From IMG/VR virus record IMGVR_UViG_3300024262_004767, positions 1 to 26,483 of that record: DNA of 26,483 bases, one strand, 5' to 3'. Positions 8,850-25,794 of the stretch are shown here, in pieces (position 1 is the first letter of the stretch; each line of letters opens with the position of its first letter). The translations under genes were made by a program, and so were the position numbers. The notes beneath the pieces are model-generated. The model had not been told where the DNA came from. It worked only from the letters and a program-made list of their open reading frames with translations, and did no database searches. Source of the DNA: a virus.

Positions 8850-9770
8850 TTAGACTTTTATTATTTTTGGTTCAACTCCAAATTCTTGTTTAATAATTTT
8901 CATTCTTTCTTTTGAGTGAGCATATAAGCTCTTTTGTCTTCTATCTATAAAATCAAAATAGAACCCTATAGTTTTTCCTGGAAAATTTCTAACACACCTT
9001 CCTATATTTTGTAACAGCTCTCTTTTATTTTTGCCACCTTTTCCATTGATAATAGCTCCACAAGCTTTACTATCAACTCCCTCTCCTATAACAGAGGTTC
9101 CAACAATAGATGGTATTTCTAAAGAGTTAAATCTTTTAATTTGTTCTTGATTTTCTCTAGCACTTGCATCTTGACCATTTAAAAAGATAGAATTTGTTCC
9201 ACAAAGGTCTCTTCCGTGTTGAATATGCTTAACTAATGTTAACGCAGGAACTTCTTGTTTAATCATTTTTTCTATTAAATTAAGAATAATTTGATTTCTA
9301 TCTTCATTAATATCTATAAAGGTTTTATAGTCTTTTTTATAAATAGCAGCAGCATTAGGTTTTTTATTACTACCTTCATCGTACTTGGTTCCCTCTGATA
9401 CGAGGTGTGTATTAGGTATATCGAAAAACACAGGCATTATAGGAACTATATATTTTTTTTGTATGGCCTCTAGGATTGACATGGAATACACTGTGTTACT
9501 GAGTACAGCCTCTAATAATATAGAAGAATCATCACTAGAAGTGAAATTTGTTGCTGTAAGTCCATGTCTAAAATAAAAAGAATTCAAATGAGATAAATTA
9601 AAGTCAAACATGGTATTGTTTGAAGAATTAGAAACTAAAATACTATCAGCAAAATAATTGTGGTTATCTTCTACCTCTATATCATAGACGTACTCACTTT
9701 CTGAATCAACCTCTTCAATTGAAATAATTGTTCCTTTGAATAATTCTCCGGTATCCTGAAAACTTTCCAT
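8850..9770 (-). CDS. UvsW-like SF2 helicase, C-terminal half, with N-terminal C-intein
   Basis: A 306-residue protein made of two parts. Residues about 11-48 are a C-intein: block F 'YDIEVEDNHNYFADSILVSN' ends in the terminal Asn48, followed by the nucleophile Ser49 of the extein. They closely resemble C-inteins of the phage gp41-1 type. From Ser49 on, the protein is the second half of an SF2 helicase: motif III-like 'GLTAT' (70-74), motif V 'GEGVD' (229-233) and motif VI 'QNIGRCVR' (254-261). Alone it lacks Walker A and the DExH box, so it should be inactive until joined to the N-half (9677-11137). The start ATG 9770 has AGGA eight bases upstream and lies inside the other gene, in the -1 frame. 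Ligated helicase: 216 + 258 = 474 residues, near the length of T4 UvsW. Confidence 0.85.
   Translation of the reverse strand: MESFQDTGELFKGTIISIEEVDSESEYVYDIEVEDNHNYFADSILVSNSSNNTMFDFNLSHLNSFYFRHGLTATNFTSSDDSSILLEAVLSNTVYSMSILEAIQKKYIVPIMPVFFDIPNTHLVSEGTKYDEGSNKKPNAAAIYKKDYKTFIDINEDRNQIILNLIEKMIKQEVPALTLVKHIQHGRDLCGTNSIFLNGQDASARENQEQIKRFNSLEIPSIVGTSVIGEGVDSKACGAIINGKGGKNKRELLQNIGRCVRNFPGKTIGFYFDFIDRRQKSLYAHSKERMKIIKQEFGVEPKIIKV
9627..9770 (-). mobile_element. C-terminal part of a split intein (blocks F and G)
   Basis: Encodes about 48 residues ending in Asn48, with Ser49 as +1 residue. The His in 'EDNHNYF' is the block F histidine. The usual penultimate His of block G is Ser here (V-S-N|S), a tolerated but less common variant. 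Its partner starts at 10489. Confidence 0.8.
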
Positions 9771-10489
9771 CCTAATTTTCCTAGTCTTAGTTCTTTTTTA
9801 TTATCAGAATCCTCTCTACCTTTATGAGAAGAGCCGTCTACCTCTATAGCAATTTTTTTATCTATCAATGCTAAATCAACCTTGTACCACCCTGGCTTTT
9901 TACTACTTTTTAAATTTATTTGATATTCAACTTCTAAAAAAGGAAACAATTCCTTAAGTTCTTTTTGAGTAGGAGTTAATTCTCTACCGTTTCCATATTT
10001 TCCTCGACCATAAGCAGAAATAATACCGTCTTTAATATTTTTCTTCATTTTAATGCTTTGTGATTCTCTAGACTTTAATGATCTATTTTTATTATTTTTA
10101 GATGCTCTTTCAGACAAGTGTTTTCTATACTCTGGGTTTTTAGATCTACGTCTTCTTGCTTCTTTTTGTGTTGTATAGCTTAAATAAAGTTTATCTCCTG
10201 TTTTTAAATCTTTAGAAAAAACTTTTTTACCGTCTTTAAATATCTTATGTTTGCTTGTAACTAAAAGTTCTTTAATTTTTCCATCTTCGTCTTTTATTTT
10301 AATTCTTAACATTTTATCAGGAGACTTATATCTAAAAGCATTAATTATTTTTTTATATTCAATCTCTTTTCCGTTCCAACTTTTTATATATTTGTTTCTT
10401 TTTTTATTTTTAGAATAAAATGAATTATATATGTCTTCTATTTTTTGAGCATATCCCTTACATTCTATCTTTATATTAGGGTCTAAACA
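9677..10489 (-). mobile_element. N-terminal part of a split intein with fused EDxHD endonuclease
   Basis: Begins at Cys217 (codon 10489-10487), directly after the helicase DExH box, and ends with the endonuclease at stop 9679-9677. The published phage fractured-gene arrangement has a separate endonuclease ORF between the two intein halves. Here the nuclease is joined in frame to the N-intein, and its 3' end overlaps the C-intein gene. Confidence 0.75.
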
Positions 10490-11137
10490 ATGATGAAATT
10501 CATCAAACTCAACTAAATGATAATCCATCCATTCTCTATTGTCTGTAGAACCAAAAGAATGATAATTAATAATAGTAATAGGCTTAGAATCAAGTCGTTT
10601 GTCATAAATACCTACATTCTCAGAACCAAAGCAACTTTCTAAGTAGTCTGCCATTTGTTCTTTTAAAACAGTTGATGGAGTAATAACTAAAGACCTAACC
10701 CCTGTTTGTTGGATATTATCTTTAATAATTCTAGTCTTACCAACTCCGGTTGGAACTTGAGCAATACCCTGTTTTGCTTTTAATAAAGCTAATGTACAAT
10801 CTGTTTGGTCATTATATGCTGTTGGCTCAGAACAACGCATGTTATATTTATAATTTCCAATTTTAGGAACAACCCTATTATCAAATATTTCTACATCTAT
10901 TTTTCTAGACTCTAAAAAAAACTTAACCCTATGGATAATTCCAGTAGGGAAAAACCCATCAGAGTCTACCATATATTTTTTAAACTGTTCTTTCTTATTA
11001 CGCCTAACCCAAGGAGAAGACATCATATATCCGCCTTTATCAAAATAAAGAACGGTTTCTCTGAGAGTAAAAAGAATAGTCTCAGAAACATTGATAACCC
11101 TCGATTGTGTATTTTCCATTATGATAGCTGCTTTCAT
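9677..11137 (-). CDS. UvsW-like SF2 helicase, N-terminal half, fused to N-intein and EDxHD homing endonuclease
   Basis: A 486-residue three-part protein. Residues 1-216 are the helicase N-half: a UvsW-like N-terminal DNA-binding domain, Walker A 'VPTGVGKT' (128-135), motif Ia 'LVITPSTVLKEQ' and DExH box 'FDEFHH' (211-216). Residues 217-320 are an N-intein: Cys217 opens block A ('CLDPNIKIE') and 'VTSKHKIF' is block B. A Lys/Arg-rich linker follows. Residues about 385-475 are a Vsr/DUF559-like nuclease with 'VDLALIDKKIAIEVDGSSH', giving the E-x-D-G-x-x-H of EDxHD homing endonucleases. T4 UvsW unwinds branched DNA and R-loops during recombination-dependent replication. The ATG has only a weak SD; Met7 is an alternative. 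A start at Met38/39 (better SD) would cut into the UvsW-like domain. Confidence 0.85.
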   Translation of the reverse strand: MKAAIIMENTQSRVINVSETILFTLRETVLYFDKGGYMMSSPWVRRNKKEQFKKYMVDSDGFFPTGIIHRVKFFLESRKIDVEIFDNRVVPKIGNYKYNMRCSEPTAYNDQTDCTLALLKAKQGIAQVPTGVGKTRIIKDNIQQTGVRSLVITPSTVLKEQMADYLESCFGSENVGIYDKRLDSKPITIINYHSFGSTDNREWMDYHLVEFDEFHHCLDPNIKIECKGYAQKIEDIYNSFYSKNKKRNKYIKSWNGKEIEYKKIINAFRYKSPDKMLRIKIKDEDGKIKELLVTSKHKIFKDGKKVFSKDLKTGDKLYLSYTTQKEARRRRSKNPEYRKHLSERASKNNKNRSLKSRESQSIKMKKNIKDGIISAYGRGKYGNGRELTPTQKELKELFPFLEVEYQINLKSSKKPGWYKVDLALIDKKIAIEVDGSSHKGREDSDNKKELRLGKLGWKVFRIPENYSKEQLFQLKRLIQKVSTSMI

Positions 11138-11171
11138 TATATATAATACTTACCTAAATAGAAAAATTGTA

Positions 11172-11210
11172 TCTAGTTAATTTTTCTAGTTAAAAATTCT
11201 AGTTTTGATT
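11172..11210. repeat. Three tandem 13-bp repeats (TCTAGTTAA type)
   Basis: Units start at 11172, 11185 and 11198, exactly 13 bases apart. Each begins TCTAGTT and continues with A/T-rich sequence. They resemble the TCTAATTAA units of the larger array in both length and core, so they are probably a diverged block of the same sites. They lie close to the start of the minus-strand helicase operon. Confidence 0.65.
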
Positions 11211-11323
11211 TTAAAAATAAAAAAAATTTTTTGTATATTATTGATTTTATTAGTTTTCTTAATTTTTATTTTACCAACCGTGTTTAGAATATTTACCACA
11301 TTAGTATATATATAAAGGAGCTA

Positions 11324-11438
11324 TCTAATTAGACTGTCTAATCAAATTTACTAATTAAACTATCTAATCAAATTTACTAATTAAATTTTCTAATGAAACT
11401 AAAAAAAATTAGACTATTTGATTAGCTAATTAAATTGT
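11324..11438. repeat. Array of 13-bp iterons in both orientations
   Basis: Six direct units start at 11324, 11337, 11350, 11363, 11376 and 11389, with consensus (T/A)CTAAT(T/C)AAA(C/T)T(A/T). Units 2 and 4 are identical and 3 and 5 nearly so, which also gives a 26-bp higher-order repeat. Two inverted units follow on the other strand (11426-11414 and 11413-11401) and one more direct unit at 11426-11438. The junction makes a near-perfect 18-bp palindrome at 11417-11434. The strict 13-base phase points to cooperative protein binding. Confidence 0.85.
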
Positions 11439-11551
11439 CTTTTATCCTCGACGTAGAAGGCTTTTTTTTTCGGTAAAAAAAAATAAAAAAATCTTTTTTA
11501 ATAGTGGTATTTTTTCGTTTGTATTATTAATCATGTACATAAGGAGAAATA

Positions 11552-12910
11552 ATGTCAAATGAAGAAATAAAGTTTCACTTTACAGACGATTTTCAGTTAG
11601 GAATATTCGAATTAATGATGTTCGATACGAATTTTTGTGAAAAAGCTGTAACAAATTTGAAAGCAGAGTATTTTAAGAACAAATATTATGCTTGGTTCTT
11701 TGATAAAAACAGAGAATTAGTAGAAGAATATAAATCAGCACCATCTCATTTACAAATAAAGAACGAAATATTGAGGTTCCCTCCAGAAAAGCAGGATCTT
11801 TATATGCAGATCTTTAAGAAGATTACAAAACCAACAAACAAAAGAGACCATAAGTATATTAGAGACAACTTAGAAGAGTTTATTAGAAAATGTTTAAGAT
11901 TTCAATTAAATGATATTTTAGTAAAGAATCAAAATAAAGCTTCAGATTATGTTGATGTCTTAGTTAAGGCTAAAGTAGAAGAGATGAATAATATTAGCTT
12001 TGGTAAGGTCCAATGTCAAAGTATTAGACATTTAACTAGTATAATGGAAGAATCTGCTACAGAAGCTGGTGATCTGATACCTACTTTTATGCCTAATATA
12101 GATAGAGCATTAGGTGGTGGAGTTCCTAAACACACTTTAACACTTGGTTTATCAGGAACTAACGTAGGTAAATCAATCTGGATGATTAATTGGGCTTATC
12201 ATTTAATATTAGCTGGATATAAAGTTTTCTTTGTAACTCTAGAAGGTTTTGAAAAACAAACTATGTTAAGATTAGCATCTAGAGCAATTGGAACTCCAAT
12301 AGGAGATGTTAGGTGGAATAAGTTATCAGATATTGAGATGCAAAAGAGAAAAAGGTTCGAAGACAAATATAAAGATTCACTTCAAATATATTATGACAGT
12401 TCTTTTGGTTTTACAATTGAAGATTTGGTCCCTATTGCTAGACAAAAGAAAGAAGAGTTTGATTTTGATATAATGATGGTTGATTATGGTCAAATATTAC
12501 AATCAAAAAAGAACTTTTCAGACCTTAGACATCAACAAGCTTATGTTCATAGAGGTTTATCTAGTTTAGCAGGTCCTCAAGAATTAGATTGTGCTATGGT
12601 TACCGTAGCTCAAGGAAATAGAGAAACTCAAGAGAAAAACAGTAAAGGCAAAGGCTTAGTTAAAATTTCAGATATCTCTGAGTGTTTTGAGATTATAAGA
12701 TGTTGTGCTACTGTAATTACTCTAAACAGATCAGACCATGATGTAGAATCAGACACAGCAAGAGCCTTATTAGATAAATCTAGAGACGGAAGAACAAACG
12801 TTATAGATATTATGAAGACTAATTTCGACAGAACAGCTTTTTATGGAACTGCAGATGAAGGCCTCGGATTTCTCCCTGCAGATGACTATACAGCGTTAAA
12901 TAAAGGATAA
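11552..12910 (+). CDS. Replicative DNA helicase (DnaB/T4 gp41-like)
   Basis: A 452-residue RecA-fold helicase that would unwind DNA ahead of the replication fork as a hexamer. ATG 11552 has AAGGAG at 11541-11546. The N-terminal ~150 residues are helical, as in the DnaB N-terminal domain. The motor domain has Walker A 'GLSGTNVGKS' (about 199-208), 'VFFVTLEG' in the place of DnaB motif H1a, Walker B 'DIMMVDYGQ' (about 306-314) and 'TVAQGNRET' (about 351-359) in the H4 position. This pattern is closer to T4 gp41 than to bacterial DnaB. It is the first gene of the plus-strand replication operon, next to the iteron region, with the primase two genes downstream. Confidence 0.9.
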   Translation: MSNEEIKFHFTDDFQLGIFELMMFDTNFCEKAVTNLKAEYFKNKYYAWFFDKNRELVEEYKSAPSHLQIKNEILRFPPEKQDLYMQIFKKITKPTNKRDHKYIRDNLEEFIRKCLRFQLNDILVKNQNKASDYVDVLVKAKVEEMNNISFGKVQCQSIRHLTSIMEESATEAGDLIPTFMPNIDRALGGGVPKHTLTLGLSGTNVGKSIWMINWAYHLILAGYKVFFVTLEGFEKQTMLRLASRAIGTPIGDVRWNKLSDIEMQKRKRFEDKYKDSLQIYYDSSFGFTIEDLVPIARQKKEEFDFDIMMVDYGQILQSKKNFSDLRHQQAYVHRGLSSLAGPQELDCAMVTVAQGNRETQEKNSKGKGLVKISDISECFEIIRCCATVITLNRSDHDVESDTARALLDKSRDGRTNVIDIMKTNFDRTAFYGTADEGLGFLPADDYTALNKG

Positions 12911-12911
12911 T

Positions 12912-13427
12912 ATGTTTATTTATCAAGCAATTAATAAAATTAATAATAAATCTTATATAGGTTTTACTAGAAAAGATTTAAAATTTAGAATAAAAGCACA
13001 TAGTAGAGGTTCAACAACTAAGTTTGGAAGAGCTATCAACAAGTATGGTCATGAAAACTTTGAATGGATTATCCTAGATTCTTCTGCTAAAAATTTAGAA
13101 GAACTCAAGCAACTAGAAATAGACTATATAGCTAAACTTAAACCAGAATATAATGGAACCTTAGGTGGTGATGGAATAGTTCCAACAAAAGAAGTTATTA
13201 TTAAAAGGTCAAATTCACATAGAGGTTTTAGACATAGTGAAAAAAGTATAGAACTAATAAGAAAAAGAACAAAAGAAGAAATGAGTAAAAAAGATCATCC
13301 CTTTTTAAATAAAAAACACAAACAAGAAACAAAAGATAAAATTTCTAAAAAACTTAAAGGAAGAAAATTAACAGAACAACATAAAAAGAATATATCTTTA
13401 GGGACAAAGAAGAAAGAAAATGAGTGA
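12912..13427 (+). CDS. GIY-YIG homing endonuclease, free-standing, paralogue 1
   Basis: A 171-residue Seg-like endonuclease. The nuclease domain covers residues 1-90: 'FIYQAINKINNKSYIG' supplies the GIY and YIG elements (Tyr4, Tyr15), Arg26 and His30 follow, Glu69 is the likely metal ligand in 'KQLEIDYI', and 'YNGTLGGDG' closes the domain. From about residue 97, His/Lys/Ser-rich repeats of the NUMOD3 type ('HSEKSIELIRKR', 'HKQETKDKISKKLKGRK') should bind DNA. It sits between helicase and primase: the ATG follows the helicase stop by one base and its TGA overlaps the primase ATG. It is a paralogue of 25228-25794 ('ILDSSAK' and 'KPEYN' shared). It probably spreads itself by cutting phages that lack it; the target is not visible. 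Confidence 0.9.
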   Translation: MFIYQAINKINNKSYIGFTRKDLKFRIKAHSRGSTTKFGRAINKYGHENFEWIILDSSAKNLEELKQLEIDYIAKLKPEYNGTLGGDGIVPTKEVIIKRSNSHRGFRHSEKSIELIRKRTKEEMSKKDHPFLNKKHKQETKDKISKKLKGRKLTEQHKKNISLGTKKKENE

Positions 13428-15794: not shown

Positions 15795-16157
15795 ATGACA
15801 ATTTTAGAATCAGAAAGTGGCAGTAGTACTATTGAAAGTAGCTTAAAAGAAAAATCAAGACTAACAAGGCGTATTAAGAAAATATCAAAGTTAGATTTTC
15901 TTGTTAATCTTTATCAAGGTAAGGCTGGAAAAGATGGAGATGAAATACCTAGTGTTCCTATTACAAATATTAAGGAACTAGCATTAAGATTAAAAGAAGC
16001 AGAAGATAAAGGTTATTTTAGAGTCCGCACAGACACTAAGACAGAAAGAAATGCAGATAAGTATGAGTCTGAAACAAAGTGGTATCTAACTCAAGCTGCT
16101 AAAAAGAATATTATTGATAGAGAATATAAAGAAAGAAAAAAACCAGTAGTTCAATAA
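15795..16157 (+). CDS. Hypothetical protein in the nucleotide-modification operon
   Basis: A 120-residue protein of no family I recognise. TAGGAG stands before ATG 15795 after a 61-base gap. The N-terminus is Ser/Glu-rich and likely disordered, followed by a strongly basic helix ('KSRLTRRIKKISK'), an alpha/beta middle and a basic tail (KERKKP). The high Lys/Arg content fits nucleic-acid binding, but no motif proves it. It lies between the dCTPase and the kinase. Confidence 0.6.
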   Translation: MTILESESGSSTIESSLKEKSRLTRRIKKISKLDFLVNLYQGKAGKDGDEIPSVPITNIKELALRLKEAEDKGYFRVRTDTKTERNADKYESETKWYLTQAAKKNIIDREYKERKKPVVQ

Positions 16158-16679: not shown

Positions 16680-16873
16680 TCTTTGTTGAAGGAATGAACA
16701 GTAAAGGTGAAATAGAAAAGTTTCCAGTGACATACTCTGGAAAGAGGATTATCTGGGAATACCTTATAGACACCGTTGAAGAAGATTTTAATTTATTAAA
16801 TGTTAAATTTAATGGTTATGAAGAAGTAAGTGAACAAAAATATAGAGAAATGAGTGTAGAATGCAAAAAATAG
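16652..16873 (+). CDS. Hypothetical small protein between kinase and glucosyltransferase
   Basis: A 73-residue protein of unknown function. The start at ATG 16652 lies inside the kinase gene (28-base overlap), with GGAG at 16643-16646 placed correctly, and its end overlaps the glucosyltransferase start. It appears to be a compact beta-rich fold with aromatic residues ('GIKYFLVFVEGMNSKGE', 'GKRIIWEYLIDTVEEDF'). There is no membrane segment. Both-side overlaps show it is part of the operon. Confidence 0.6.
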   Translation: MSNGIKYFLVFVEGMNSKGEIEKFPVTYSGKRIIWEYLIDTVEEDFNLLNVKFNGYEEVSEQKYREMSVECKK

Positions 16874-17973
16874 TAATTTTTAAAATGTGTTATAATGTCC
16901 ACTTCGGTTCTAAAAAAGAAACTGGAGTCATACTTTATGAGATTGATGAGCCTATTAAGGAATTAGTGTCTAAAGGTTATGAAGTAACAGTAGTTACTAT
17001 TGATAGGTATCACAAACACGCTTTTGATGGTGTTAAGTGTTTAGATTGGGAGCAATTAGACAGCGTTTGTAATTCGTTTGATTGTGCTATTATCTATAAT
17101 GGACCATTTAATTGTTATGGCGGTAAAATATCAGACCCAACAATATATTCTTATAGGTTTTTAAATCAATTTAAAGGTCCTATATTATTCTGTGTTACAG
17201 ACACAGCAATTCCTATTGGTGATGCTGCTAGTTGGGTAGAAGGAGCAAACAAAAAAGGAAACTACTTAGATATTAATCCATCAGATTTATATTTTGATCC
17301 AAAACAAATTCATTGCTTAACACAGACTCACAATATAGATAAATTTAGAACACATTGGAACCAAGAGACAAATAGTTTTGGATCCTATGAGTTATTTAAT
17401 TTTCATTATTACGCAATGAAGAAAGATAGATTATGTTTACAGATAAATAATGAATTAAAAAGAGACCTTATTTATTACGGTAATCAAAGGTCAGGAAAAA
17501 GAAATGATAAGTTTGTTGAATATTTCTGTGGACATAAAAACATTACTGTAGATATTTATGGAAAGTGGGTTCCCAAAAATTTAAAATCTTTTGAAGATGA
17601 GTTACCAAACTTTTTAGGACCTATTGATACAAGGGACCTTAATTCTGAGATCAATCAATCTTTAGCTACAGTATATATATCAGATAAGTTTAATGAAGAT
17701 TGTATTTTTACCACCAGATTATATGAGGCTGTTTTTAATAGAACTATAATGTTCATGGATATAGATAATGATCCGCAAAAAACTAAGTTTCCAGATTTCT
17801 TTTATGTATCTAGTAAAAAAGAATTGAGTGATAAAATTAATCTTTTAAAGTCTAATGCTCAAGTTAGAGTAGAATTACTTAATAAACAGTTTAGTTGTTT
17901 AAAAGAAGATATGAAAGAGATGTTAGCATTTCCACAAAGGTGGGATGAAATTATAAAGAAGAGGTTGGAATAG
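16861..17973 (+). CDS. DNA beta-glucosyltransferase (T4 beta-GT-like)
   Basis: A 370-residue GT-B glycosyltransferase that would move glucose from UDP-glucose to 5-hydroxymethylcytosine in finished DNA. Similarity to T4 beta-GT (351 aa) runs along the length. The functional residues appear to be kept: Glu20 (T4 Glu22), Asp114 in 'FCVTDTAIPIG' (T4 catalytic Asp100), Arg210 and Arg214 in 'QRSGKR' (T4 Arg191/Arg195 in 'FRSGQR'), and Arg286 and Glu289 in 'TTRLYEA' (T4 Arg269/Glu272 in 'TLRVWE'). 'NGPFNCYGGK' matches T4 'NSSINFFGGK'. The start overlaps the preceding gene by 13 bases; the stop shares one base with the GTG of the hydroxymethylase. A different sugar donor or acceptor base is possible. 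Family call is firm. Confidence 0.85.
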   Translation: MQKIVIFKMCYNVHFGSKKETGVILYEIDEPIKELVSKGYEVTVVTIDRYHKHAFDGVKCLDWEQLDSVCNSFDCAIIYNGPFNCYGGKISDPTIYSYRFLNQFKGPILFCVTDTAIPIGDAASWVEGANKKGNYLDINPSDLYFDPKQIHCLTQTHNIDKFRTHWNQETNSFGSYELFNFHYYAMKKDRLCLQINNELKRDLIYYGNQRSGKRNDKFVEYFCGHKNITVDIYGKWVPKNLKSFEDELPNFLGPIDTRDLNSEINQSLATVYISDKFNEDCIFTTRLYEAVFNRTIMFMDIDNDPQKTKFPDFFYVSSKKELSDKINLLKSNAQVRVELLNKQFSCLKEDMKEMLAFPQRWDEIIKKRLE

Positions 17974-18920
17974 TGGCGCACATATTTGAAGATAAGAAAA
18001 ACAACGCTTATCCATATGTTTTTTTAAATGCGTTAGATAAGTTAATGCTTGATGGAAGAGAAGCCTCTCCAAGAGGAATGCTAACTAAAGAATTAGATCA
18101 TTGTGTTTTTAAAATAGACCCAAGAAAGTCTCTTTTTGTAAGCCCAAAAAGAAACTTAAACTTTTGGTTCTTACTTGCAGAAAATTTATGGTATTGGTCA
18201 GGTAGAAACGCAACAGGAATTCCTTCTACCTATGTAAAAAATTATAAACAGTTTTCTGATGAAAACTTACACCAAGGAGCCTATTCTCCTCAAATACTAG
18301 AACAAATAAGGTTTGTTATTAACACTCTTAAAGAAGATAAGGATACTAGGCAAGCTGTTATGTCTTTATGGAGGCCGAATCCTAATAAATCTAAAGATAC
18401 TCCATGTACTCTTACTTTTGATTTTAAAATTAGAGACGGCAAGTTAAACCTTCATGCAACAATGAGAAGCAATGATATAATTTTTGGAAATAATTATGAT
18501 ATTCCTTCCTTTTCATTATTACAAATTGCAGTTGCTGGAATACTAGGAATAGAAACTGGTAATCTTTTTCTTACAGCTCATTCCCTCCATATTTATGAAA
18601 GACATTTTAAGCTTGCAGAGGAACTTTTAGAAGAATCATATCATTACTTAAAATATCCAGAAGAACTAATTATTCCTCAATGTAATGTTGGTTCTTTAAG
18701 TAAACATATAGAAAATATTGAGATGCTTTTGAGTGCTCATTATACTATGACTTGGGATTCAAGAGCCTTTTATCATACTTTTGAAGATTTTTATCAACAG
18801 TATTATTTAATGATGAGATTATTTGCTGAAGATAAAAATGATCCAGAGACTATTGAAGAACTTAAGAAGATAAACTCTCCATTTGGATATACTCATGATT
18901 ATCTATCAGGCAAGAAATAA
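17973..18920 (+). CDS. Deoxycytidylate (dCMP) hydroxymethylase, thymidylate-synthase fold
   Basis: A 315-residue enzyme of the thymidylate synthase superfamily that would turn dCMP into 5-hydroxymethyl-dCMP with methylene-tetrahydrofolate. The catalytic Cys145 lies in 'DTPCTLTF'. 'MRSNDIIFGNNYDIP' has Asp176 where thymidylate synthases have the uracil-reading Asn; Asp there is the mark of dCMP-specific enzymes such as T4 gp42 ('MRSNDVVFGFRNDYA'). 'CT' after the nucleophile (not 'CH') and 'SLHIYERHF' also match gp42. It is longer than gp42 (246 aa) and keeps a synthase-like N-terminal region with 'DTRQAVMSLW'. GTG 17973 follows GAGG at 17961-17964. Substrate: dCMP is well supported; dUMP is less likely. 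Confidence 0.82.
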   Translation: MAHIFEDKKNNAYPYVFLNALDKLMLDGREASPRGMLTKELDHCVFKIDPRKSLFVSPKRNLNFWFLLAENLWYWSGRNATGIPSTYVKNYKQFSDENLHQGAYSPQILEQIRFVINTLKEDKDTRQAVMSLWRPNPNKSKDTPCTLTFDFKIRDGKLNLHATMRSNDIIFGNNYDIPSFSLLQIAVAGILGIETGNLFLTAHSLHIYERHFKLAEELLEESYHYLKYPEELIIPQCNVGSLSKHIENIEMLLSAHYTMTWDSRAFYHTFEDFYQQYYLMMRLFAEDKNDPETIEELKKINSPFGYTHDYLSGKK

Positions 18921-18981
18921 AGATAATAATAAAAATATCTAAAACCTTAAGAGAAAAGAAACTTCATAAGTATTATCTATA

Positions 18982-21900
18982 ATGAATGTATCAATAAAAA
19001 ATAAATCTCACTATTCTTGTGGCCTTGCTGTTGGAACATCTAAGCAATATTTAGAAGCCGCAAAAGAAAAAAACATAACTCATTTTGCTATTACAGATTT
19101 TTGTACTCTTGGTGGAGCTTTAGATTTTTATAATCAAAAGAAAAAGACTGATATAAAGATAGCAATTGGAGTTGAATTTAAAATAGATTATGGTGGAGCT
19201 CTAGATTCTTTCCCCATATCTTTAATTTGCAAGAATCAAGAAGGCTATATAAACCTCTGTAAGCTTGTTACTCTAGCAAATAAGAACAATAAGATTTTAA
19301 ATATTCACGATATTTACGAACACTATGAAGGATTAGTTTGTATATCTCAAGACATTCAACACAAAGAATCATTATCTAAAATATTTAATGATAACTTATA
19401 TTTTGAAATAATCCCTTATGAAGATAGAAGAAAACATAACTTAGATATCATTTCACAAGTTGATCACACAAAAGTTGTGTTATCAAGTGATGCCCATATG
19501 CCTAACGTAGAAGATAAAGTTCTTCAAGATATTATGATTCAAAACTCTACTTTTGGATCTAAAGATAATACTTTCCCTTTTGCTAAATATATGATGGGAA
19601 CTAAAGAATTACTAACGACCGCAATTAGTAACCTTCCGTCTGAGTTTCAACAGTATTTAATAAGCGGCATAAAGAATGCTAAAAATATTATAGAAGAATG
19701 TTCTCAACTAGAACTAAATTTTAAAGATCAAATTGTTAATTATCCACATTTACTCCATAGATTAAATAAAGACAATTGTGATAAAGAAACCTTACTTAGG
19801 AGAATTATTAAGGAAAACAATAGGTGGGATCAAGAAAATAAAGAATATAAAGAAAGGTTAGAGTATGAAATTGATTCAATCACTAATAATTCTAGAGTTA
19901 ACCTTATTGATTACTTTCTGGTTCTTGAAGACTTATGTGAATACTGCTCAGCAAACGATATACCTGTTGGTCCTGGTCGTGGTTCAGGTCCTGCTTCCCT
20001 TGTCCTTTATGGACTCAAAGTAACACATTTAGATCCTATTAGACACGGATTACTATTTGAGAGATTTATATCTAAAGGACGTATTGAAGCCGGCACTCTT
20101 CCAGACGTAGATTTAGACTTTGCTAATCAAGATGTGGTTAGAGAATATTTAATTAATTTATATGGAGAAGATAGAGTAAAGCCTATAGGTACTTATCAAA
20201 CACTTGCTACAAGAGGAGCAATTAAAGACGCTTTTAGAACTTTATATCCAGATGTAGATTTTGTTCAGTCTAATAGAATTACTTTCTTAGTTGATAATGA
20301 CTTAAGGCAAGAAGGAGATACTGAAAGTGATTTTTTCCAAAGGCAACTCACAGACAATGAACCTTTCCAAATTGCAATGGAAGATTATCCAAGAGTTAGT
20401 GAAGCAGTATCCAGTCTCGTTGGTTATAACCGCCAACCTGGTGTTCACCCATGCGGATTGGCCATTACACAAGATCCCATCGATGAATTCGTTCCTACTC
20501 GCTTTACTAAAGACAACCAAGTGCTTGAATACCAAGCAGATTACTGTGAGCAATCAGGAATTATTAAGTACGACATACTTGGACTCAAAACCCTTAAGTT
20601 TTTTCAAAAATGTTTAAAGCTTATTTCTGAGAAATTTAAAGATGAAGACCTTAAGGGTCTTGATTATCCTAAAACTATATATGATATTCTATTAGACGAT
20701 ATAATGACGTATGAGGCTTTTGAAAGAGGAGATACTGAGTCTGTATTTCAATTTAACTCTAACGTAGCTAAAGCTATTTTAACTAAAATTAAAGTAAATT
20801 CATTAGACGACTTATCTATGGTAACATCTGTTGGTCGTCCAGGTCCTATGAAAAACGGTCAACATTTTAATTTTATGAAAAGAAAGAACAAAGAAGTTCC
20901 TTCTACTCCTCCTCATCCTGCATTAGAAGAACTTTTGAAAGATACTTTTGGTATTATGATATACCAAGAGTCTGTTATGAAATGTGCTCAACTAATGGGT
21001 GGATATAGCCTTGCAGAAACAGATAATATTCGTAAAGCTATGGGTAAAAAGAAAATAGAAATCTTACTTCCTTATAAAGAAGGTTTTATAAAACACTGTC
21101 AAGAAAAATATCCAGACACAAAACAAATGATGCCTAAGAAAAAAGATGAACAAGAGGCTGTTTCTAAGGCTGAATATATTTGGCACCTAATGGAAACGTT
21201 CTCTGGGTATGGTTTCAATAAGTCTCACTCAATGTGTTATGCTTTAATAGGATATTATTGTCAATACTTAAAGGTTCATTATCCATTAGAATGGTGGAGT
21301 GCCTGTCTTGAACATGCTGGAGGACCAGAACATACTAAAGCTTTTTATGCTGCCTTTAAGAACAGAATATTGTTACCTTCAATTAATATGTCTACAGATA
21401 AGTATCAAATTGAATATGAAAAAAAATATACACAAGATGAGAATGGAGACGAAGTAGAAGGTTTTATTATAATGCCTTTTGATTCTGTAAAAAACGTAGG
21501 CGAAAAAGCTTCTCATGCAATTCAAGAGTCTGCTCCATACTCTTCGTTTGAAGATTTCTTTAAAAGAGTAAACAAAAGAGCTTGTAATAAGAGAGTTGTT
21601 TGTAATCTTATTTTTGCTGGAGCTTTTGATTCATTTGAAACCGATAAAGAAAAGCTTTTGTCTGAGTATTATATTCTTAGAAAAGAAAAGAAGATTCCTA
21701 AGGAGCATCAAAATATAACAAGAGATTTTGAATTAGACATGAAACATCAAGTAATGGATTTTTTAACATTAGATTATATAGAAATGTATCCACATTTATT
21801 TGGACATTGTTTATATCCATCACAAATTAAAGACGTAGCCCAAGGTGACCCAGTTGTAATTGTAGGTAAAATTATAAAAATTTCAAAAAGAAAAAAACAT

Positions 21901-22122
21901 GATGGTGATCCATATTTAGTAATACAAATATCAAACTGTGATGAAAACTATGATGTTGTTGCTTGGACAGAAGAAGTTAAGTTTTATAAAGACTCTCTTC
22001 AAGAAAAAGAAGTTGTTAGAATTGATGGTATAGTTAATCATAAATTTAAAGCTAATCAAATAAGTATAAATAAAGTACACCTATTAAAAGAGTGTATCAA
22101 GTTTGGAGGAATAAACATATGA
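18982..22122 (+). CDS. dnaE: DNA polymerase III alpha subunit-like (C-family, DnaE type)
   Basis: A 1046-residue replicative polymerase, slightly shorter than bacterial DnaE (about 1160). Order: N-terminal PHP domain (1-200), palm with 'VGPGRGSGPASLV' (about 329-341), catalytic 'LPDVDLDF' (about 372-379) and the third Asp in 'IKYDILGLKTL' (about 531), fingers ('SVGRPGPMKNG'), a helix-hairpin-helix near 835-865, and a C-terminal OB fold (about 950-1035, 'VVIVGKIIKISKRKK'). The PHP metal site looks dead: the HxH of motif 1 is K-N-K and 'ITDF' replaces ITDH, so proofreading must come from elsewhere. ATG 18982 has no obvious SD; the sequence before it is TATCTATA. It follows the hydroxymethylase after 61 bases, so it would copy DNA with modified cytosine. 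Confidence 0.9.
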   Translation: MNVSIKNKSHYSCGLAVGTSKQYLEAAKEKNITHFAITDFCTLGGALDFYNQKKKTDIKIAIGVEFKIDYGGALDSFPISLICKNQEGYINLCKLVTLANKNNKILNIHDIYEHYEGLVCISQDIQHKESLSKIFNDNLYFEIIPYEDRRKHNLDIISQVDHTKVVLSSDAHMPNVEDKVLQDIMIQNSTFGSKDNTFPFAKYMMGTKELLTTAISNLPSEFQQYLISGIKNAKNIIEECSQLELNFKDQIVNYPHLLHRLNKDNCDKETLLRRIIKENNRWDQENKEYKERLEYEIDSITNNSRVNLIDYFLVLEDLCEYCSANDIPVGPGRGSGPASLVLYGLKVTHLDPIRHGLLFERFISKGRIEAGTLPDVDLDFANQDVVREYLINLYGEDRVKPIGTYQTLATRGAIKDAFRTLYPDVDFVQSNRITFLVDNDLRQEGDTESDFFQRQLTDNEPFQIAMEDYPRVSEAVSSLVGYNRQPGVHPCGLAITQDPIDEFVPTRFTKDNQVLEYQADYCEQSGIIKYDILGLKTLKFFQKCLKLISEKFKDEDLKGLDYPKTIYDILLDDIMTYEAFERGDTESVFQFNSNVAKAILTKIKVNSLDDLSMVTSVGRPGPMKNGQHFNFMKRKNKEVPSTPPHPALEELLKDTFGIMIYQESVMKCAQLMGGYSLAETDNIRKAMGKKKIEILLPYKEGFIKHCQEKYPDTKQMMPKKKDEQEAVSKAEYIWHLMETFSGYGFNKSHSMCYALIGYYCQYLKVHYPLEWWSACLEHAGGPEHTKAFYAAFKNRILLPSINMSTDKYQIEYEKKYTQDENGDEVEGFIIMPFDSVKNVGEKASHAIQESAPYSSFEDFFKRVNKRACNKRVVCNLIFAGAFDSFETDKEKLLSEYYILRKEKKIPKEHQNITRDFELDMKHQVMDFLTLDYIEMYPHLFGHCLYPSQIKDVAQGDPVVIVGKIIKISKRKKHDGDPYLVIQISNCDENYDVVAWTEEVKFYKDSLQEKEVVRIDGIVNHKFKANQISINKVHLLKECIKFGGINI

Positions 22123-22655
22123 AAGAGCAAGAAGAGTTTAAAGTTGAATTAGAAAGTCTTGGTATTCAGCTTGTTAATTTGGAAGATATTGAAGGATGTT
22201 TTGGGTTAGGAATAGAAGTTGATCTTGATACTGATGTAGATTATTCTCACTTAGTTAAAGAAAAACTTGTAATGAAAAAACTAACTAAAAGAAAAGATTT
22301 TTTCTATATTATGCTTAAAAGTTATGATACAGAAAAGAAGAGATTAACCTTAATGGTTGCTTCTCCAATTGATAAAAACGTTTTTGATTTTTTTGAGAAA
22401 ACAAACGATGTAATTATTGGAACTAACTTTCCAGACCTATGTTGGTACTACGCTGAAGGAACCACAGAGTTAACTAAAGAAGAGGTTGAAACTAAATTTA
22501 GAGAAGATGCTTTAATGGGCGATTTAAATTGGTTTTTACCAACAAGAATAATAGATAACTTTATTGAGATTATGCATACATTAAATCAATCTTTTTTGCA
22601 AGGACTAATGCAAGATACTATTTGCTATGGTCCCTATTTAATGTCAGATAAATAA
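22119..22655 (+). CDS. Hypothetical protein downstream of DnaE
   Basis: A 178-residue protein of no recognised family. ATG 22119 overlaps the polymerase stop (ATGA) and is preceded by GGAGG at 22105-22109, so it is preferred to an in-frame GTG at 22092. It is rich in Glu, Asp, Lys and aromatic residues, without Cys clusters or membrane spans. The C-terminal half is helical ('RIIDNFIEIMHTLNQSF'). The tight coupling to the polymerase suggests a replication accessory protein, but no motif supports a given role. Confidence 0.6.
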   Translation: MKEQEEFKVELESLGIQLVNLEDIEGCFGLGIEVDLDTDVDYSHLVKEKLVMKKLTKRKDFFYIMLKSYDTEKKRLTLMVASPIDKNVFDFFEKTNDVIIGTNFPDLCWYYAEGTTELTKEEVETKFREDALMGDLNWFLPTRIIDNFIEIMHTLNQSFLQGLMQDTICYGPYLMSDK

Positions 22656-22670
22656 TAAAAACAGAGTATT

Positions 22671-22684
22671 ATACTTTATAGTAT
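22671..22684 (+). promoter_or_regulatory. Small hairpin ahead of the ssDNA-binding protein gene
   Basis: ATACT (22671-22675) and AGTAT (22680-22684) flank a TTAT loop in the short leader of the gp32-like gene. T4 gene 32 is translationally autoregulated through leader structure, so this could be an operator or part of a promoter, but a 5-bp A/T stem can arise by chance. Confidence 0.25.
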
Positions 22685-24104: not shown

Positions 24105-25231
24105 TGAGTAAAAATTTATTTGGTAATCTATTAAAGAATGAAAACATATTTCAAGCATCCACAATTGTAGAAGACTTAGCGGTTAGGGTACCACAGAGAG
24201 ATCCTTTCTACTGTACAAGCCCCACTATGTCTTGGGGCACAGCGGCTGGTTTTCAACCAGGAACTATGGAATTACTATATGGTCCTAAGTCTTCTGGAAA
24301 AACAATGATTGTTCTTGATAGAATCAAACAATGTCAAAGAATAAGTAAAGATACAATTCAGCTCTTTGTTGATGCTGAACTTGGTTTTGAGTTTGAATCG
24401 ACAGTTAAGTGGATGAAAGTAAACGGAGTTGATATAGAAAGGGTTGCAATTATAAGACAAGTTTGTATTAAAGAAATTTTTGAAAAAACTTTACTTGGTG
24501 AGATACAACAAGAATTAAAAGCTGGTAATATCCAAGTAGATTATATAGCTATGGACTCTATTCAAGCTATGAGTGTTCAAAATATACCTTCTACTGAGAA
24601 ACAAATTGCTTCAGCAGTAAAAAATGATGGTTTTACCAAAGGAGACTATGGTGCTCGCGCAAACTATTTAGCTAAAATATTTCCATTCTTTAGAATGTTT
24701 TGTAGAGATTTTAGAATTTTTACAACCTTTGTTGGACAAGCAAGATCAGGTGGGACCGATTTTCATGGTAATCAAATTTGGACCACAAATGGAGGCGAAG
24801 CACTATACCATGAGGTTCAATATAGACAACTTGTTCTTCCAGCAGGAATTCCTGTTTTTGATGAGTTAAAATCAGATGCAAATGGAAAGCCTGTTCAAAT
24901 AGGACACCGCATAAAGTTTACGTTTGAAAAAAATAAAATGGGAGAAGGTCACCAACGTAAAGGCTATTTTGATATAATTTATCTTAAAGGTATAGTTAAT
25001 AAAGAAGAAGAATTAATAGTTCTATGTTCTAAATTAAACATTGTTGAAATTAAAGGAGCTTGGTATTATCTAGCAGATAAGAAATTTAATGGCTCTAAAC
25101 AAGCTGCTCAGTTTTTAATTGATAACCCAGACGAATACCAAACTTTATTTAATAGAATGATAATGCAGTCTCATACTGCTCCATCTGAAGATATTATTTT
25201 TGATAAAGAAACAGGTGAAATTAAAGAATGA
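24104..25231 (+). CDS. uvsX: UvsX/RecA-like recombinase
   Basis: A 375-residue strand-exchange protein; T4 UvsX is 391 aa. Walker A is 'GPKSSGKT' (60-67), followed by 'DRIKQCQ'. 'QLFVDAELGFEFES' resembles the 'iDaE.a.d..' element after RecA motif 1a. Walker B is 'DYIAMDSIQAM' (about 146-156). The DNA-binding loop 2 region is probably near 'GQARSGGTDFHGNQIWTTNGG' (about 212-232). The C-terminal part has a short mixed domain and an acidic tail. The start shares one base with the preceding stop, and the end overlaps a GIY-YIG gene by four bases (ATGA). It should act with the gp32-like, UvsY-like and UvsW-like proteins in recombination-dependent replication. Confidence 0.88.
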   Translation: MSKNLFGNLLKNENIFQASTIVEDLAVRVPQRDPFYCTSPTMSWGTAAGFQPGTMELLYGPKSSGKTMIVLDRIKQCQRISKDTIQLFVDAELGFEFESTVKWMKVNGVDIERVAIIRQVCIKEIFEKTLLGEIQQELKAGNIQVDYIAMDSIQAMSVQNIPSTEKQIASAVKNDGFTKGDYGARANYLAKIFPFFRMFCRDFRIFTTFVGQARSGGTDFHGNQIWTTNGGEALYHEVQYRQLVLPAGIPVFDELKSDANGKPVQIGHRIKFTFEKNKMGEGHQRKGYFDIIYLKGIVNKEEELIVLCSKLNIVEIKGAWYYLADKKFNGSKQAAQFLIDNPDEYQTLFNRMIMQSHTAPSEDIIFDKETGEIKE

Positions 25232-25794
25232 TAATTTATCAAGTGATTAACCAAATTAATAGTAAAAGATATATTGGCAAAACATGTAAAGATTTATCTG
25301 AACCAAAACATAGGCACTTTATGAACGCCAAGCAGGATCGTGGTTTTTATTTATCTAATGCAATTAGAAAGTACGGCTTTAATAATTTTAAATTTTTTAT
25401 TTTAGATTCCTCTGCTAAGTCTAATCAAGAGCTAATTGATTTAGAAAAAGAATATATAAAAGCAAGAAAACCAGAGTATAATATGACAAGCGGTGGTGAA
25501 GGTTTTTCTGGTTTAAAAAGAACAAAAGAACATTGTTTAAAAATAAGTAAAGCTAATAAAGGTAAGAAAATTTTAGACAAACATAAACAACAAATATCTC
25601 AAGCAAACAAAGGCCGTAAGCATACTGAAGAAGCTAAAGCTAAAATAGCAGAATCAAGCAGAACGAGAAAATTATCTTTTTTACATAAAGAAGCTTTGAG
25701 AAAATCAAGATTAGGCACGAAGCACTCTGAAGAAACGAAGAAATTAATAAGTATAAAAACTAAAGAAGGTATATCTAAAAGGAAGGAAAAATGA
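25228..25794 (+). CDS. GIY-YIG homing endonuclease, free-standing, paralogue 2
   Basis: A 188-residue paralogue of 12912-13427. Nuclease domain 1-92: 'IIYQVINQINSKRYIGKTCKDL' (Tyr4, Tyr15), His28/Arg29, likely catalytic Glu73 in 'IDLEKEYI', and 'YNMTSGGEG'. The rest is a run of NUMOD3-type units beginning with 'KRTKEHCLKISKANKGKK', then 'HTEEAKAKI' and 'HSEETKKLI', more copies than in paralogue 1. It fits between uvsX and the SbcD-like gene with four-base overlaps at both ends (ATGA at 25228 and at 25791), so it moves without breaking translation of its neighbours. Target site not visible. Confidence 0.9.
   Translation: MIIYQVINQINSKRYIGKTCKDLSEPKHRHFMNAKQDRGFYLSNAIRKYGFNNFKFFILDSSAKSNQELIDLEKEYIKARKPEYNMTSGGEGFSGLKRTKEHCLKISKANKGKKILDKHKQQISQANKGRKHTEEAKAKIAESSRTRKLSFLHKEALRKSRLGTKHSEETKKLISIKTKEGISKRKEK

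Follow-up and report, generated by a model that had tools for sequence, protein, structure and literature searches.

What does a block of short repeats do at the place where two replication operons of a phage diverge? The window analysed here, a linear fragment of 26,483 bases derived from environmental DNA, comprises one entire IMG/VR record; in it, tail and lysis genes are followed by a replication module. This module encodes a UvsW-like helicase (minus strand), a DnaB-like helicase, a primase, a sigma factor, a dUTPase-like protein, a thymidylate synthase, a DnaE-type polymerase, a UvsX-like recombinase and an SbcD-like nuclease. The uvsW-like DEAD/ResIII helicase gene (8850-11137, minus strand), which is interrupted by an intein and split into two overlapping ORFs, and the gene of the DnaB-like replicative helicase (11552-12910, plus strand) diverge from a non-coding gap of 414 bp (11138-11551), the sole ORF-free gap of more than 200 bp in the window. 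Genes on the minus strand form a single run, uvsW, in the window as well as in G3 and G4. The repeat array occupies 118 bp of the gap (11321-11438). A previous sequence-only reading had placed it between two helicase operons in very A/T-rich DNA, and this description was correct: the gap has a G+C content of 19%, compared with 31% for the record.

Several features of the surrounding genes deserve mention in their own right. The two uvsW ORFs overlap by 94 bases in different frames (9677-9770, minus strand) inside the intein, which carries a DUF559/MTES-type nuclease domain. The same split is found in L012 (15913-16006, minus strand), a phage only about 42% identical in DnaB, and thus it is unlikely to be a sequencing error; an overlapping-gene split intein and a programmed frameshift are both possible. 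In L001 and L014, uvsW is intact and has no intein. DnaE carries an intein-like insertion in three relatives (L001 15475-19470, L013 15386-19375, L005 385-4371) and lacks it in the window (18982-22122) and in L014. A T4 beta-glucosyltransferase-like gene lies beside a thymidylate-synthase homologue (16861-17973 and 17973-18920), a pair which could possibly serve DNA base modification. Two short ORFs next to dnaB and the recombinase gene (12912-13427 and 25228-25794) begin, as judged by eye, like GIY-YIG proteins and from this resemblance are probably homing endonucleases.

The array consists of nine related, AT-rich sites with a CTAAT core. Six direct 13-bp units (11321-11398, plus strand; cores at 11325, 11338, 11351, 11364, 11377 and 11390) are followed by two inverted units (11400-11425, minus strand; ATTAG at 11408-11412 and 11421-11425, 13 bp apart) and by a ninth, direct unit (CTAATTAAATTG, 11426-11437, plus strand, core at 11426), which abuts the inverted unit back to back. 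All of them were found where the sequence-only reading had located six direct, two inverted and one further direct unit. The phasing, which had been called strict, is so only in part. The core centres are 13, 13, 13, 13, 13, 18, 13 and 5 bp apart, i. e. the 13-bp step is unbroken from the first to the sixth direct unit and again from one inverted unit to the other, and the phase is lost at both orientation switches (18 and 5). Similarly, the proposed 18-bp palindrome (TTTGATTAG/CTAATTAAA) is present at 11417-11434 with one mismatch, and the left inverted unit (CTAATTTTTTTTA) has retained nothing but the core (CTAAT/CTAATT). Among the six direct units all changes fall outside the core. With a 13-bp step, each site is turned by about 86 degrees round the helix relative to the one before.

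This is a real, non-random repeat array. At lag 26, 50 of 65 bases are identical, compared with a mean of 35.7 (sd 1.7, maximum 43) in 300 dinucleotide shuffles; at lag 13, 48 of 65 are identical, compared with a mean of 30.3 and a maximum of 41 in 500 shuffles. CTAAT/ATTAG occurs 12 times in the 414-bp gap where 2.3 +/- 1.5 occurrences are expected. The exact 12-base consensus CTAATYAAAYTW has four copies in the whole record, all four of them inside the array. One-mismatch copies outside the array lie within genes and are not clustered in the 26-kb window, copies with two mismatches are no more frequent in the whole window than expected by chance, and no further cluster of sites elsewhere in the 26 kb held. 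A motif scattered evenly through the genome would have spoken against a special role; the search through the rest of the record showed no scatter within the 26-kb fragment. A coding origin of the array was rejected, as the period of 13 or 26 is not a multiple of three and no ORF of at least 60 aa covers it.

The 26-bp period is stronger than the 13-bp period (TRF score 113 with 89% matches vs 71 with 72%). It is repeated 2.8 times over the stretch of the six direct units, in which CTAATT and CTAATC forms alternate, so that units two apart resemble each other more than adjacent units do. This would suit a mostly neutral tandem duplication, in which a 26-bp AT-rich unit was duplicated, partly inverted and left to drift in unconstrained non-coding DNA, and the missing conservation described below fits the same explanation. 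However, the CTAAT core is constant in nine of nine units (an argument that is partly circular, as the units were found by their core), the gap is retained in four phages although phage genomes are tightly packed, and a second cluster with an equal step lies in the same gap. We therefore regard a neutral origin of the array as rather unlikely.

Searching IMG/VR with DnaB, DnaE and tail-protein queries yielded three relatives that hold the gap: L001 (DnaB 47% identical, gap of 553 bp), L012 (42%, 663 bp) and L014 (44%, 435 bp). In all three, uvsW and dnaB diverge from a non-coding gap. The CTAAT array is missing from each of these gaps (at 42-47% DnaB identity), and none of the three contains repeats with a 13-bp step. 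Hence the conservation in related phages that one might have expected from a functional site did not materialize: L001, L012 and L014 keep the gap without the array. This lowers the claim but is not decisive, because non-coding DNA is hardly alignable at 42-47% DnaB identity. Judging from the compared sequences, the position of the gap is conserved and its sequence is not. Repeats in the gap of L001 are borderline and the gap of L014 has no repeat array at all. L012 has its own purine-rich repeats in the homologous gap (17577-17672), with a period of 31-34 bp and beyond what shuffles produce. A long way from the uvsW-dnaB gap, an exact 28-bp repeat (2.3 copies) was seen in non-coding DNA of the record of L014 (L025 1831-1894).

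In the relatives' whole records the consensus occurs as scattered singles, about as often as a reversed-pattern control in G1 (11+11 vs 11+7) and G3 (7+2 vs 5+6) and somewhat more often in G4 (17+6 vs 3+8), there also without a cluster. No DNA-level relatives of the region were found among phages (blastn, 5 kb). Comparison of the array with phages and plasmids by blastn gave nothing useful, apart from a single 22-base chance match; two exact array patterns had no occurrence across IMG/VR, and no relatives of DnaB were found in bacterial and archaeal genome contigs.

Does the gap behave like an origin of replication? Since nearly all genes of the four phages lie on one strand, GC skew was compared at four-fold degenerate sites of plus-strand genes. 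In none of the four (the window and the three relatives) does the skew change sign at the gap. Thus this check, which the sequence-only reading had suggested, gave no sign of a bidirectional origin, and a fixed bidirectional origin at the gap is unsupported. A skew switch is a supporting sign of an origin and not a required one; an origin that is unidirectional, used only early or overlaid by recombination is compatible with the observed skew.

The stability of the DNA is more favourable to an origin. According to nearest-neighbour energies the least stable 200-bp stretch of the window is 11131-11330, a candidate unwinding element, and for window sizes of 100, 150 and 200 bp the minimum of stability in the record always falls into 11123-11330 (starts 11123-11173). 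This DNA adjoins the array and overlaps its left edge. AT-rich intergenic DNA is usual in such phages, however, and for this reason the assignment as an unwinding element is weakly supported.

Regulation of the two operons is the other obvious role for such an array, and here the location of the promoters is informative. The motif GTATWA was found in 12 of 16 upstream regions of 60 bases (uvsW, dnaB, dnaE and the ssb-like gene in four phages), compared with a shuffle mean of 2.2 and a maximum of 6. Its upstream distance from the start codon is 12-14 bases for uvsW in four of four phages and for dnaE in three of four, a spacing which suggests leaderless or nearly leaderless transcripts. In the window, the likely -10 element of uvsW is GTATTAT at 11143-11149 (minus strand; conserved in four of four phages) and that of dnaB is GTATTAT at 11521-11527 (plus strand); further GTATWA(T) elements are found at 18970-18976 and 22666-22672 (plus strand). 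The relatives in this comparison were L001, L012/L013 and L014. Measured upstream from the likely start of dnaB, the main array is about 95-210 bp away; its distance from that of uvsW is at least 185 bp, and it overlaps neither of the likely core promoters. Since both are outside the array, simple promoter occlusion is disfavoured; an origin and regulation from afar would both be compatible with this arrangement.

A second cluster with a 13-bp step, which the sequence-only reading had not mentioned, was detected by TRF and autocorrelation at 11173-11204 (plus strand). It contains CTAGTT three times (CTAGTTAATTTTT CTAGTTAAAAATT CTAGTT), and its lag-13 signal has a shuffle p of about 0.002-0.03. 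At a TRF score of at least 45, this cluster and the main array are the only non-coding tandem arrays in the window; they share the gap and a period of 13 bp, which is not a multiple of three. The second cluster adjoins the likely uvsW promoter, just upstream of the likely -35 position, where an activator of uvsW might bind.

These features would fit a cooperative operator, in which a phage-coded regulator binds to the main array and to the 11173-11204 cluster and times the two divergent operons, uvsW and dnaB; it would act from afar, by activation, silencing or loop formation, and not by occupying a promoter. Two clusters of equal step, one on each promoter's side, would serve such a regulator, and direct and inverted units together with a palindrome suit a dimeric one. 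A possible regulator is a basic protein of 120 aa (15795-16157), which has small syntenic counterparts in all three relatives (22-28% identity) and whose structural model gives weak winged-helix-like matches (best Z 5.0). But the confidence of this model is low (mean pLDDT 67.7) and a Foldseek search with it returned no significant match, so that the protein is only a candidate for binding the array. Moreover, the main array covers no promoter, and no other cluster of sites in the 26 kb held. Based on the mixed orientation, the palindrome, the twin cluster and the divergent promoters, which recall the omega arrays of pSM19035, we consider an operator quite possible, if on balance doubtful.

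If the array is an origin, which protein would recognize it? Among the 20 scanned proteins of the window (10 with Pfam, 20 with PHROGs) no Rep-, O- or DnaA-like initiator was recognized, the record being a fragment; this agrees with the statement of the sequence-only reading that no initiator gene is obvious. An exact DnaA box is absent from all four gaps, where near matches are at chance level only. A conserved protein of 178 aa (22119-22655; model with a mean pLDDT of 80.1) was not assigned as a helicase loader because the best match to a solved structure is unconvincing (E 0.0033).

The array could also act as RNA, i. e. a transcript of the gap could fold into long hairpins formed by the palindromic CTAAT units and serve as a leader, a small RNA or an R-loop primer. 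The predicted folding does exceed that of shuffles on both strands, with -18.1 kcal/mol (z -4.6) on the plus and -28.2 kcal/mol (z -5.8) on the minus strand. Yet a strong fold is built into palindromic repeats in both orientations and is lost on shuffling; the probable promoter of dnaB is downstream of the array; and no intrinsic terminator, no Rfam match or tRNA and no homologue for covariation were found. A role as RNA is thus very improbable.

How does the array compare with known systems? The oriE region of T4 contains evenly spaced 12-nt direct repeats, the role of which is called ill defined (PMC3016281). The array shares with it short, even direct repeats in a phage with UvsX/UvsW-type replication genes. 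This likeness is loose because the T4 block lies in the coding DNA of gene 5, whereas the array is non-coding, has a 13-bp step and includes inverted units; in addition, the region has no DNA similarity to any phage record, and neither the syntenic position nor the related repeats of an oriE-type origin were found. The T4 block beside the annotated oriE (NC_000866 79426-79557; L033 2927-3058) has a 24/48-bp period according to TRF and may reflect a protein repeat.

Origins of iteron plasmids (RK2, R6K, F, P1) have direct repeats beside an AT-rich unwinding element; their iterons are typically 17-22 bp long, are accompanied by a Rep gene and mostly by DnaA boxes, and bind cooperatively depending on helical placement (PMC4980987). 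The array likewise has several direct repeats next to AT-rich, easily unwound DNA, but its units are of 13 bp with a turn of about 86 degrees per step, and neither a Rep gene nor an exact DnaA box was found. The origin of the PLE satellite, in which RepA binds an iteron in a non-coding region between divergent operons (PMC7145576), is similar in its place. In pSM19035, omega (ParB) binds cooperatively to parS/promoter arrays of direct and inverted heptads that overlap promoters (PMC9499535). These too are runs of short sites of mixed orientation in promoter regions, but they are contiguous 7-bp heptads (WATCACW) at six sites on the plasmid, whereas the 13-bp units of the array occur in one place only and lie clear of the core promoters. 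At ParR/parC centromeres, too, short direct repeats follow one another ahead of an operon (PMC9426499); here, no parM- or parR-like gene was seen in the window, and a fragment of a lytic-type phage has no evident need for partition. Membership of the array in the T4 oriE, plasmid iteron or any other of the compared families is not established.

Overall, we judge that a protein binds the array, and the best reading is a lineage-specific, iteron-like array for cooperative protein binding. Both roles proposed by the sequence-only reading, origin and cooperative operator, survive; the place between divergent operons, the low duplex stability, the confinement of the motif and the lack of a recognizable initiator came out as it had described, and conservation and skew did not lend support. 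On sequence grounds, the bound protein most likely either starts DNA replication or controls the two genes, with an origin slightly likelier than a regulatory operator.

A possible interpretation is that, in this phage with its T4-like replication genes, the array is an iteron-like cis-acting element in the control region between the divergent replication operons. A putative DNA-binding protein would fill the CTAAT(T/C)AAA sites side by side and cooperatively, and the bound complex could help to open the AT-rich DNA at 11131-11330. The primase and the DnaB-type helicase of the phage would then be placed there, which would make the gap a replication origin. The sites would evolve fast, hence each phage lineage would have its own set. 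Six direct repeats at constant 13-bp spacing and the retention of the gap and the gene order in L001, L012 and L014 argue for an origin. Against it stand that no initiator was recognized, that the skew is reversed in none of the four phages and that the array is missing in the relatives; moreover, the phage has UvsX- and UvsW-type genes, and for T4-like phages R-loop or D-loop starts are possible without an initiator (PMC3016281). Because of its place, the adjoining weak duplex, the concentration of the sites in one spot and their distance from both core promoters, we consider recognition of the array as an origin a serious possibility, if somewhat short of an even chance. More specific, and unlikely, is the proposal that the array is the origin of a phage lineage which combines a DnaE-type polymerase with T4-like recombination genes, that an initiator of an unknown family serves it, and that the repeats are swapped wholesale between related phages with the gap staying fixed.

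To our knowledge, the choice of the first origins in large lytic phages with UvsX/UvsW-type replication is poorly understood, and the repeats of T4 oriE themselves have no established role. The array is a short, well-defined block of 118 bp in a non-coding gap and is open to direct experiment. If its role is that of an operator, it would reveal how the timing of uvsW relative to dnaB is set in such phages.
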